Below are positions 48,491 through 53,262 of a stretch of DNA of 64,000 nucleotides, one piece after another. The position numbers and the translations under genes were made by a program. How positions within the stretch are numbered: position 1 is the stretch's first letter; the number at the start of each line of letters is the position of its first letter. The stretch covers positions 19,907,001-19,971,000 of the forward strand of contig NC_091972.1 of NCBI RefSeq assembly GCF_036711975.1, written 5' to 3'. This DNA is from Onthophagus taurus. Lineage: Eukaryota; Arthropoda; Insecta; Coleoptera; Scarabaeidae. A model generated the notes under the pieces. That model searched no databases. It saw nothing but the letters and a program-made list of their open reading frames with translations, and had not been told where the DNA came from.

Positions 48491-49084
48491 TATGTACACG
48501 TGCAAGTGATATATGTATATATTTCTATTTAGAGATATTTAGGGTTATGTACAAGAAAAATGGCTTTTTGGCTACTTTTGAAGTTATTGTGTTCTTCTCT
48601 GAAGGTGACAGCTATGTTTATTGCGAGGGGTAAACCGCTGGGGAAGTAGGTGTACAAAATAGGGGAAGTTCGACGAATTACGGGGAAGTCTGGGGAATTA
48701 TGAGGAGATGCGAGTAATTACGGGGAAATACAAGGAATTACGGGGAATTATCGAGGAAGTTTGGGGCAGTACGGGGAATTATTGGGGAAGTACGGGAAAT
48801 TATTTAGAGAAATTTGGGGATATATTGAAACACGATCGAACACGATTAAACACGATATCTAACGATCGAAGTTACGATGTTCCATAAACAAGCTAGATCT
48901 AGTATTAGGTGCGCAGTTTCTGTTTCATAAAGGGTGTGTGAATTGTTACTAGTAGAAGCATCGTTTTCATTCAAAGGTAAGATTGAATGAGTATCATATT
49001 AAAATTTAAATTTATATTAACATATCGTGAAGAGTCAATGATACTAAATTCGCTCGTAAATTCTGTTTTGTATTAGGCGCCAGG

Positions 49085-52000
49085 ATGACGGCAAATCGCT
49101 ATCGCTGTTTTCAAGAGGCCGAAAATTTTCTACAATTTCAATTAAATGAAAATGTTAAGGAAATTCTTATTATTAGCGGATTTGATAATGAGGTGCTGCT
49201 TGGTACGATTGACGAAAATGATCTAGAAAAAATAGAAGCATTTATTAGAAATGACTACCATGAATTACTAACTTTGGAAGAAAAAAATTTGTTTTACGGG
49301 ATTTTTAAAAATAATCCGCAGCAATTTAAATTGCTATCTGGCACGAAAAAACAAATAGTTTTAATTTCCAAATTTTATAAATCCAAATACGAGAGAAAAA
49401 TATCGACTCAGTCTACGCAAACCGACATAACTGAAAACATTTCTGAGCAGACATTACCACCCCCCTCAGCACAACCATTAAGTGAGACTGCAGCTACAGA
49501 TCAGGAAACAGAAAAGTGCGTTATATTAAAAGCTCTTAAGTGCTGGCTTAAAACAAAAGTTAGTCAGGAACAATGGTTAATATTTGAATCAAAATGTAAT
49601 GGTATAAGCCTAAAAATTCAAAAAGGATTAGATGAACATTTTTCTTGCACTGTGACTTGCTTTTGTGGTCAAAGTTGAAAAATCCAAAAGGTGTCCAAAA
49701 CAGACACTTGTCAACCAAGACGGCTATATGCTAATGTTCATAAACATTTTTTAAGTAAACATATTACTGCGCATACGAACGATCAAATTAATGCACCAGC
49801 TATTGTTGAAAGTAAACGCAGGGAAACATCAATTACTGATTATTTTACGTTGAACCCAAATCCGTGTTCTTCACGTGCAAGTTCTTCAGTTGAAAATAAT
49901 TCACAAAAGATTATTATACTAGAAAATATTTCCGTAACACCTGTTGACCGTACTGACACATCTCATCATGAATGTCTGAAGAGTATTGAAAATATTTACT
50001 TTAATGAAACCGCCTCGGAAACCGATAAAGAAAATGTTTCCTCAGAAGTATCAATCAGCGTAACCGAGTGTGTAACTCCAACAAAGACCGAAATCTCGAC
50101 GACACCCTTACACAAGTTCCTATACGAAAAATTGTTACTCGTAATAATTTTCCCCAGACTAGCTCTTCAAAATGGAAATTAGAAAAGTACGGAAGAAGTG
50201 AAAGATCTAAACGCAAAAGAGACAATATTGACAATAATCAACTGTTTATAACAGAGTTTTTTCTTTACTAAACGACGCAACAAATGTTTTATCTGCTAAT
50301 CCCGAAATAATTAATCAGATCGATGATACTCTTAAAATTAGAGGGGAAAGCGATTTCTCATTGAAAAATGCGTGAAAGAATGTGACAGGGTTGCTAAAAA
50401 TTCTTTGTGAAATTTTCCTAAAAAATACAAAACGTTCAAAATATAAACACACTTTTGACGACGTTATTAAAAAATTTAGTCTTTATTTATTTTACATTGG
50501 TGGTAGACTTTTGTATGAAGTCCTTTATACAAATTTAAAGGGCGCACTCCCAACAATTTCGACCCCGAATAGATATGTTAACAATCAGAATAAGTATTTT
50601 GATGAAGGCAGTTTCGACTTTGCAAATCTTAAAGTTTTTCTGGACGAAAGGAATCTTGCCTCGATTGTTTGGATTGCTGAAGACGCCACCAGGATAACGG
50701 GAAAAGTTGAATACAATTCTAGAAACAATACAGTGATGGGATTTTCTCTGCCACTTAAAAATGGTTTGCCTGTAACAGATGCATATTTGGCGACTTCATC
50801 AAGAGTTATGCAGGAATATTTCCTAATAATAATGGCGCAACCGCTGTGTCAAAACGCACCAGCTTATTGTTTATCAGTATATGGCACTGACAACACATTT
50901 ATATACAAAGACGTTCTTCAACGATGGAAATATTTAGAAAAGGAAGCTATTCGTTATGGAATAAAAATATTGGGTTACTCCTCTGATGGAGATACGCGGC
51001 TTCTACAGTCTATGCGTATAAGAGCAAAACTTCCTTTCAAACAAACGCAGGAACCTAATTGGCCGTGGTTTCAAATACCCATAGACAATGAATTTAACCC
51101 TGAAAACTGGCAATGTTTTACACAAGACGAGGTTCATATCGGAACTAAACTACGAAATCGCCTACTTAAAGCCAACATTTATTTGCCGATAGGAAATTTT
51201 ACTATATCCGTAACGCATATTGAAGAACAAGTGAAGAATCAACCAAAAAACAAACATATTTTAACGATTTCCGATCTAAATCCAACAGACCGAATGAACT
51301 TCAAATCAGTGGAAAAAATTACATCCTTAGAAGTATTGGAATTGCTGAAGAACGTAGAAGATTCAGAAGGCACAATCTCGTATTTGAAAGTCATCAGTTA
51401 CATATTAAACGCATTCTTAAATAAAAACATATAAAAGGGATGAAATTCTCCATATTTCTCAATAAAATATATAAAAAATAGAAAAAGTAAAAATTTTTTG
51501 TGAGAAATAATTAAATATTAAAATTTATTATTAAAGAGCAGACATGTTTCGAAACGATTGTTTCATCTTCAGTACTTTAAAATATATGCAAAATGATGGA
51601 AAAAATACAAAAATATAAATAAATTGGGAATATCTTAGTAAATTTTTTTAGCAAAATTTTCTTAAAAAATAAAATTATTTCTATATAGGTTTTCTTTTTG
51701 TTAAAAATGAAAATAAAACATTTAGAAATATTGGAAATAAACTTATGAAAAATTTACTAAGATATTCCCAATTTATTTATATTTTTGTATTTTTTCCATC
51801 ATTTTGCATATATTTTAAAGTACTGAAGATGAAACAATCGTTTCGAAACATGTCTGCTCTTTAATAATAAATTTTAATATTTAATTATTTCTCACAAAAA
51901 GTTTTTACTTTTTCTATTTTTTATATAAAAACATATCTTTAGAAAAACGACTGTATTATATTTGGCACGCTGTGTTTTACTTCCGCATATGGAGATATTG

Positions 52001-52340
52001 GATAAAAGAACACAAAACATATAAACTAACCGATAATTTCATCACCTTAAACGCCTACCTCTGTGTAGAACTAAATGCACACTATTTGATAAAACTTGTA
52101 TGCATATTTCGAAGTAACAATTTTCATTCTGATATGTTTTGTCCGTGGCTATTTGTCCGTGGCTGGATTTTTTTGTATGGCCGAAAACACCAGACATCGC
52201 GGTTGTTGATGAAGAGTATGTATTTTACGGTAACATTAATTTACTTGGTAACGGCATATTTCAAATTAGCAGACATGATGATGTAGAAATAAAGAAATTA
52301 TACAAAGCTTTCAAACAAAATTATAAAAAGCTTTAAATCT
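49085..52340 (+). pseudogene. Transposase of the 48.6-52.7 kb element (P-like RNase H core), broken
   Basis: N-terminal part 49085-49678 (RYRCFQEAENFLQFQLNENV, VKEILIISGFDNEVLL, then a Ser/Thr linker and TCTVTCFCGQS, perhaps a finger), 49691-50271 in shifting frames, and the main 350-codon stretch 50382-51434. Candidate catalytic sites follow P-transposase order: IVWIAEDATRITGKVEYNSR (Asp), ILGYSSDGDTRLLQSM (Asp) and CFTQDEVHIGTKLRNRLLK (like FDPPH..K..RNNL). A foldback MITE (51433-51924) cuts it after LNAFLNKNI. It resumes at 51925 with YYIWHAVFYFRIWRYW and YLCVELNAHYLIKLV. Proteins of this type are known to me only as uncharacterised repeat ORFs. Confidence 0.78.
51433..51924. mobile_element. 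Foldback MITE, copy 2
   Basis: Arms of about 200 bp: TAGAAAAAGTAAAAATTTTT to AATATCTTAGTAAATTTTT and the reverse complement up to 51915. ATAAAAACATAT occurs on both sides (51421-51432 and 51925-51936), giving a duplication of at least 8 bp. Same family as 39537-40005. Confidence 0.88.
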
Positions 52341-52689
52341 GTTTGGTCAGTATTATTATTTTCTGTTTTTATATAGAAAAACTCAATGTTTTTATTTGCC
52401 AAAGAATATATGTTAATTTTTATTGACTTTTATTTGGGTGTTTTACTTAAATACACACGTGGATATGCCGTCCGAAGGGAGAGGAGATACAAGTATGTAA
52501 GAAGAATTACGGGGAAGTATCAGGAAGTATAAGGAATTATGAGGAAATACACGGAAATACAGGGAAATACTAGGAATATAAGTAGGAAGTATAAGGAATT
52601 ATTTGTCAAAGGGGAAGTAGGTGTACAAAATTTGAACTAGCGGTTTACCCCTCGGTTTATTGTAAGGATGTCAGTGTCCTCGTTCAAAA

Positions 52690-53262
52690 ATATAGACTGT
52701 TGTATGACCCATTACATTACACTATATTACATAGACAATTTTTGTGCCCTTCACCAGGAAACGATAGTTGTATGGACTAATACGCCCAACTATCCAAGGT
52801 GAAGAAATTCCTTTTTCAAAGGAAGTCAAATATCCAGGAGTAACCCTAGACAAAACCCTCTCATGGAATGGAGTTTTGCACAAAGCTAGACTATCCTTGT
52901 GAACTTGTCTGGCAGAAGTATACTGCCAGACACCTCGAATTAAGCGAGCCTACAGCCTAGGTACGTACTGTACTGTATTCCAGGCGGAAGTATTTGCTAT
53001 TGATGTGGGAGCTAAAATCATTCTTGAGAGAGGGGTAAAGAACATGACACTACGACTGTTCTCAGACCGTCAAGTTGCTCTCCAGGCGTTGCAAGCCGTG
53101 GAAACGGTGTCGGTTCTGGTTAATGACTGCAAGAGAACATTAAACACGCTGAGTTGTGATAACAGAGTTTCTCTGATCTGGGTCCCAGGTCACTCTGGAG
53201 TTGCTGGCAATGAAGTGGCAGATGAGCTAGCACGAGAGGGCAGCATACAGAACCGACAGTAA
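52690..53262 (+). pseudogene. R1-like LINE relic with RNase H domain
   Basis: 52745-52920 matches the LINE at 63.4-63.6 kb almost base for base (CCAAGGTGAAGAAATTCCTT, ACCCTAGACAAAACCCTCTC), then jumps to the RNase H domain. 53005-53262 reads LRLFSDRQVALQAL (Asp) and IWVPGHSGVAGNEVADELAR (His and Asp). QAEVFAI just upstream supplies the Glu. The RT and the stretch between are deleted. Confidence 0.85.

Follow-up and report, generated by a model that had tools for sequence, protein, structure and literature searches.

A dead, non-autonomous DNA transposon copy in Onthophagus taurus whose transposase is probably a distant sister of P transposase

Introduction

A 64,000-nucleotide stretch of the genome of the beetle Onthophagus taurus (NC_091972.1, positions 19,907,001 to 19,971,000; here called the window) contains at 48624-52654 a DNA transposon that the initial annotation placed in no named superfamily. 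To which transposases is this element related, and how would it have moved? We consider, with a probability of about 0.86, that the copy is dead and non-autonomous, and that it belongs to a cut-and-paste transposon with a transposase distantly related, as a sister, to that of the P element.

The catalytic core aligns with P transposase

The read-through protein of the window element was used as a search query, and matched 56 proteins at E ≤ 1e-3. None of them (0/56) had a functional name, in agreement with the remark in the initial annotation that such proteins were known only as uncharacterised frames. Their hosts included beetles (Brassicogethes, Callosobruchus, Photinus, Aquatica, Phaedon and others), the ant Cardiocondyla and the sponge Amphimedon. 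A second search, started from relative P0039, gave 173 proteins; among the 120 matches listed, many had PHD and some had Ulp1 domains, and identifiers beginning with Em presumably belong to the sponge Ephydatia. By these sequence matches, relatives of the lineage are present in insects and sponges. In P0032, P0166, P0227 and others, Ulp1 protease and PHD finger domains lie behind the transposase core.

Profile alignment of relative P0003 with L044, an ordinary P element of the genome that contains the window, extended over 415 columns (15% identity in hhalign), and a structure model of P0003 had the split RNase H fold of P transposase with a mostly helical insertion domain. The D-D-E triad occupied homologous positions in 47/47, 54/54 and 52/52 ungapped rows of a 55-row alignment of relatives. 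The helix-turn-helix (HTH) model PF12017 scored above its cut-off in P0032 and P0039, with E ≤ 1 in 11/55 relatives, and was not found in a Pfam scan of the window protein. As judged from these alignments and the model, the relatives have an HTH domain, a split RNase H domain, a D-D-E triad and a helical insertion domain.

Several observations weigh against this placement. The window protein reached the cut-off of no Pfam P-element model, a profile search of the sequences of solved structures gave no P transposase match, and the modelled core is that of P0003 and not of the window copy. Furthermore, no complete transposase gene and no copy with the full triad was found in the assembly (35 of 76 candidates scored): core copies of the window's own family (family A) lack the Glu, and copies of a second family (family B) lack the first Asp.

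The P-like core proposed in the initial annotation is nevertheless borne out by both the profile alignment and the fold of the relatives. This match to a named superfamily is strong, which the initial annotation had set as its condition of refutation, and the claim of an unclassified superfamily therefore falls. As the core and the 8-bp target site duplications (TSDs) are P-like but two marks of P elements proper, the THAP domain and the set of GTP ligands, were not found, we regard the lineage as sister to the P elements rather than as part of them. No description or name of the lineage was found in the portions of the literature searched, and it is apparently a deep, unnamed branch of the P-element family.

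A different front end

THAP was detected in the control L044 and gave no match in the window read-through protein, as the initial annotation had anticipated. Among the 56 relatives the precomputed Pfam column, blank in most rows, contained no THAP entry, and THAP was absent from the 25 of 42 Pfam families listed for the relatives' alignment (A1). In place of THAP there is a weakly SAM-like helical domain followed by a CxC...HxxxxH finger, whose residues C192, C194, H221 and H226 (window numbering) are invariant in 15/15 aligned rows. This suggests that, within the P superfamily, the front end that reads DNA has been exchanged.

Residues of the GTP site

Passages of PMC7776569 give D230, D303 and E531 as the catalytic residues of DmTNP, list D528, K385, K400, V401, S409, F443, D444 and N447 as its GTP contacts, and describe P transposase as the only one of the transposases and integrases to bind GTP as a cofactor. 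In passages of PMC10983969 the GTP residues of zfTHAP9 are reported as kept, and the excerpts of both papers describe 17-nt staggered donor cleavage with a GTP cofactor for the P element and THAP9. Residues were mapped from DmTNP through L044 to P0003. Counts below are for ungapped rows of the 55-row alignment, followed by those of a 38-row P reference alignment.

D528: kept in 0/52 relatives, Gln in 52/52; P rows, D 38
K385: kept in 0/53; P rows, K 30, R 4
K400: kept in 0/55, Asn in 53; P rows, K 24, R 10
V401: kept in 1/55, F or Y in 54; P rows, V 37
F443: kept in 1/53; P rows, F 37
N447: kept in 1/53, Leu in 35; P rows, N 38
S409: kept in 27/54; P rows, S 38
D444: kept in 19/53; P rows, D 32

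The residues with which P elements hold GTP thus seem, from these alignments, to be absent in the lineage; the partial retention of S409 and D444 counts against this. A real possibility, which we would rate at rather less than an even chance, is that the element is an ordinary member of the P superfamily in which a rearranged pocket still serves GTP use, the ligand changes being alignment error or compensation. Retention of the insertion domain, inside the aligned range of the model, favours such a pocket, as do the Ser and Asp rows just given. The position of D528, on the other hand, is anchored by the catalytic Glu three residues further on and is uniformly Gln, and K400 and V401 lie in an aligned block (K-M-K-V / D-K-M-N-F); placement of K385 and of F443 to N447 is less secure than that of D528, K400 and V401. 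The two alignment methods were concordant, the differences being reproduced when 40 lineage proteins were aligned separately with MAFFT together with 38 P proteins. Motifs also separate the groups: SQxCE..F..xR occurs in 34/56 and 96/116 lineage proteins versus 0/99 P proteins, and NQ[DN]..E..F in 0/172 lineage proteins versus 59/99 P proteins.

Ends, copies and insertion sites

The ends of the window element, with its terminal inverted repeats (TIRs), are as follows.

48616..48623, no strand: left TSD, GTTTATTG
48624..48639, + strand: left TIR, perfect, 16 bp, CGAGGGGTAAACCGCT
52639..52654, - strand: right TIR, perfect, 16 bp, inverted copy of CGAGGGGTAAACCGCT
52655..52662, no strand: right TSD, GTTTATTG

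The boundaries given in the initial annotation are exact. At up to three mismatches the only TIR matches in the window were the two ends (0.06 expected from shuffles). In the 290.8-Mb genome the exact TIR occurred 36 times, versus 0 for the reversed control, as 16 pairs spanning 1,485 to 7,374 bp and 4 singles. With a looser search two of the singles gained a partner TIR with one or two mismatches (L025, 1,102 bp with a perfect 8-bp TSD; L043, 3,244 bp with a TSD matching at 7/8 positions), leaving C3:144078 and C11:14463799 unpaired.

Identical 8-bp flanks were present in 14/16 exact pairs, L013 and L014 being off by one base each. The 100-bp flanks of L011, L012, L013, L014 and L015 agree at 98-100/100 positions, and these five copies therefore represent one duplicated site. 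The corresponding segmental duplication, at C7 27.508-27.831 Mb, contains one 2.06-kb copy plus flanks, present five times. The copy collection that the initial annotation had proposed as a check thus yielded, for family A, 18 two-ended copies at 14 insertion sites, with perfect TSDs at 13/14 and a 7/8 match at the other.

Six of eight one-mismatch TIR matches belong to the distinct, diverged family B, with left TIR CGAGGGGTATTTCGCA (CGAGGGGTATATCGCA in L031) and right TIR CGAGGGGTAAACCGTT. Its 8-bp TSDs are perfect in 6/6 copies, and its coding pieces have 33-44% identity to the family A protein (39-44% for the best pieces; tblastn). Pooling both families gives 20 separate insertion sites, with perfect TSDs in 19 and a 7/8 match in one; TTAA occurs inside 4 of 18 listed TSDs, none of which is a TTAA duplication. 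An additional match to the lineage was located at C2:23773305-23775114. L034 (C7:35792661-35802361), perhaps a third family, has a one-mismatch TIR with GGTGTAC nearby; no second end or transposase match was found there.

Subterminal arrays run in one direction

Between the TIRs and the gene lie repeated motifs and a longer box.

48640..48803, + strand: left array of GGAA(T/G)TA-like units, forward only, about 10-bp spacing
48640..48660, + strand: 21-bp box, GGGGAAGTAGGTGTACAAAAT, abutting the left TIR
52503..52619, + strand: right array, in the same direction as the left
52611..52631, + strand: 21-bp box again, directly repeated, with 7 bp between it and the right TIR

The same-way arrays reported in the initial annotation were present at both ends of 24/24 copies (18 of family A, 6 of family B), and within 250 bp of each end no GGAA(T/G)TA was found on the other strand. 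In 22 copies the left 250 bp contained 5-11 occurrences of the motif and the right 250 bp 1-10, and L025 and L043 had the same pattern. Shuffled ends (300 per end) never reached the observed count at 22/22 left and 21/22 right ends. At the right end of L018, where other sequence starts about 54 bp from the tip, 16/300 shuffles did so. Spacings cluster at 10, 20-22, 30-32 and 40-43 bp in family A and at about 9-11, 20-22, 29-31 and 39-41 bp in family B, so that units are about one DNA turn apart. At the position equivalent to the 21-bp box, family B has a GGTGTACA core at 6/6 left ends and a AGTGTACT core in 5/6 right ends, the exception being L035.

It is unlikely that the arrays are neutral tandem repeats produced by slippage, with no role in transposition. 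A 10-bp tandem unit would by itself yield 10-bp spacing, and binding by transposase is here a proposal from sequence; but motif and direction are identical at both ends of all 24 copies in two families with proteins sharing only about 33-44% identity in tblastn pieces, and inside 22 copies the motif falls to at most 0.23 per 250 bp. As the arrays and the box are direct, their orientation relative to the tip differs between the ends, which would therefore not be equivalent. It is plausible that the arrays let transposase tell left from right. Such a polar design is unusual, and P and RAG, with their 12/23-like asymmetry, are suitable for comparison with it.

The gene of the window copy and its relatives

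The coding region, on the + strand except where stated, is arranged as follows.

49085..49675: first part of the transposase gene, with a helical, weakly SAM-like domain (residues 1-110, approximately) and the finger domain up to its middle
49658..49762: putative CxC...HxxxxH zinc finger, broken by the stop in this copy
49676-49678: in-frame TGA after the gene start
50239..50262: PIP-box-like QLFITEFF, a candidate PCNA-binding motif, right before the HTH domain
50376..51434: longest open reading frame, 352 aa; HTH region, first RNase H half and start of the insertion domain
50682..50684: first catalytic Asp, aligned with DmTNP D230
50985..50987: second catalytic Asp, in SSDGD, aligned with DmTNP D303
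51123..51167: QDEVHIGTKLRNRLL, where the insertion domain begins, aligned with D-x-PH-x-x-K-x-x-RN of P transposase
about 51433..51918, no strand: nested insert of about 486 bp, mostly two 180-bp inverted arms, interrupting the gene
51921..52334: remaining insertion domain and last ~50 residues of the C-terminal domain
near 52139-52163: internal deletion removing the catalytic-Glu segment

Two details of the initial annotation require correction. A single reading frame at 50382-52340 had been proposed; the core frame is 50376-51434, followed by the nested insert. The third acidic block, QDEVHIGTKLRNRLL, is not catalytic; its counterpart in P transposases is the D/H-x-K-x-RN motif at the beginning of the insertion domain rather than the catalytic Glu. 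With an in-frame TGA, frame changes, another stop before 50376, the nested insert and no third catalytic acid, the window copy is dead. The arms of the insert are 99% complementary and flanked by an apparent 10-12 bp AT-rich duplication; it is possibly a Mutator-like (MULE-like) or foldback miniature inverted-repeat element (MITE).

The internal deletion is common to the window copy, L017, L021 and L022, and removes residues ~932-1274 of the full-length relative P0001; in L020 and the L042 locus a little more of the C-terminal end is retained, starting at 1239. In a six-frame motif scan, all five family A core copies (these four and L043) had both Asp motifs and none (0/5) had the Glu motif SQxCE. 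Among the six family B copies the second Asp was found in 6, the Glu in 5 (not L033) and the first Asp in 0. A stop just before QDEVHIG is shared by L017 and L021, with a frame break there in L022, whereas the window copy is open at this point; to judge from sequence, this is a sign of a common defective ancestor of L017, L021 and L022. Nested in L022 (3040-4763) is another, possibly Transib-like, element with a weak RAG1 match (PF12940, E 9e-4, below cut-off).

KP elements are repressor-making deletion derivatives of P, and family A might have spread in the same way, although we regard this as quite improbable. The 2.06-2.09 kb copies L010, L011, L013 and L014 do keep open frames of 446-463 aa with N-terminal domains only, and 12/15 separate-site copies have no in-frame stop in the aligned N-terminal codons (frame shifts uncounted). 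The frames of L012 and L015, however, are interrupted, and the 105 pairs formed by 15 family A copies, which are not independent of one another, give a dN/dS of 0.94, with no signal of selection after insertion. This ratio, with a median dS of 0.017, indicates that the copies are little diverged and drifting neutrally.

A proposed mechanism

That the superfamily is unrelated to P, as the 15% identity and the lack of a Pfam match in the window protein might suggest, is contradicted by the profile alignment and fold model and is very improbable.

Judged from sequence and modelling together, the element most likely moved by cut and paste, with a P-type RNase H transposase provided in trans. The full transposase would have been supplied by an autonomous partner, of which none was found in the assembly. 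Its N-terminal finger may have bound the 10-bp-spaced GGAA(T/G)TA arrays and its SAM-like domain may have driven oligomerisation, while the HTH and RNase H domains would have paired and cut the 16-bp TIRs, without the GTP site typical of P transposase. Seen from the two tips, the arrays and the 21-bp box would have faced the complex in opposite ways, and the ends would be non-equivalent.

More tentatively, at somewhat under even odds, we propose an ancient sister lineage of P, extending from sponges to insects, that combines the P fold without GTP with a SAM-like oligomeriser and a finger reading one-way, helically phased arrays. If so, GTP use by P would be a later addition, or its absence here a loss open to dating and dissection. 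A sister group with the P fold, an intact D-D-E triad and altered GTP-site residues offers a natural test of the role of the cofactor and of when it arose.

Neighbouring elements in the window

Remains of an ordinary P transposase lie at 1674-1934 (PF21787, 82 bits) and continue to about 2600, with a P-type FDPP motif and NPDALENFF remnants read by eye downstream. An RNase H domain adjoining the right end of the element, at 52903-53259 (PF00075, E 7e-9), is probably from a non-LTR retrotransposon.

Comparison with known systems

Kolobok elements target the 4-bp sequence TTAA, unlike the lineage described here, whose duplications are 8 bp. Kolobok and KolobokP are also DDD/E DNA transposons, and KolobokP has direct repeats at its ends; compared by description only, in passages of PMC9587614, it differs in that these are long terminal direct repeats and in having a homing endonuclease. 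The hAT element Hermes, according to passages of PMC10368747, has many short subterminal repeats bound by a BED finger, and provides a working analogy for reading of the arrays by the N-terminal finger.

Ordinary P elements are abundant in this genome, with 150 scored loci over the cut-off of PF21787, the RNase H model of P transposase, eleven of which have open frames of 706-855 aa. L044, the one examined among these, has an open frame with a THAP domain. It shares the superfamily core with the lineage and has THAP, RNaseH_N, GBD and RNaseH_C domains over cut-off, none of which appears in the window protein.

Like Drosophila P transposase (6P5A, 6PE2) and THAP9, the lineage has an HTH domain, an RNase H core with the D-D-E order, an inserted, mostly helical domain, 8-bp TSDs and internal-deletion derivatives. 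Unlike P and THAP9, it has a SAM-like domain and a CxC-HxxxxH finger where THAP was not found, and keeps six of the eight GTP ligands in just 0-1 of 52-55 rows. P element ends, as described in passages of PMC7776569, have 31-bp TIRs, a 10-bp site per end and inverted 11-bp repeats, whereas those of this lineage have 16-bp TIRs and arrays running in one direction.
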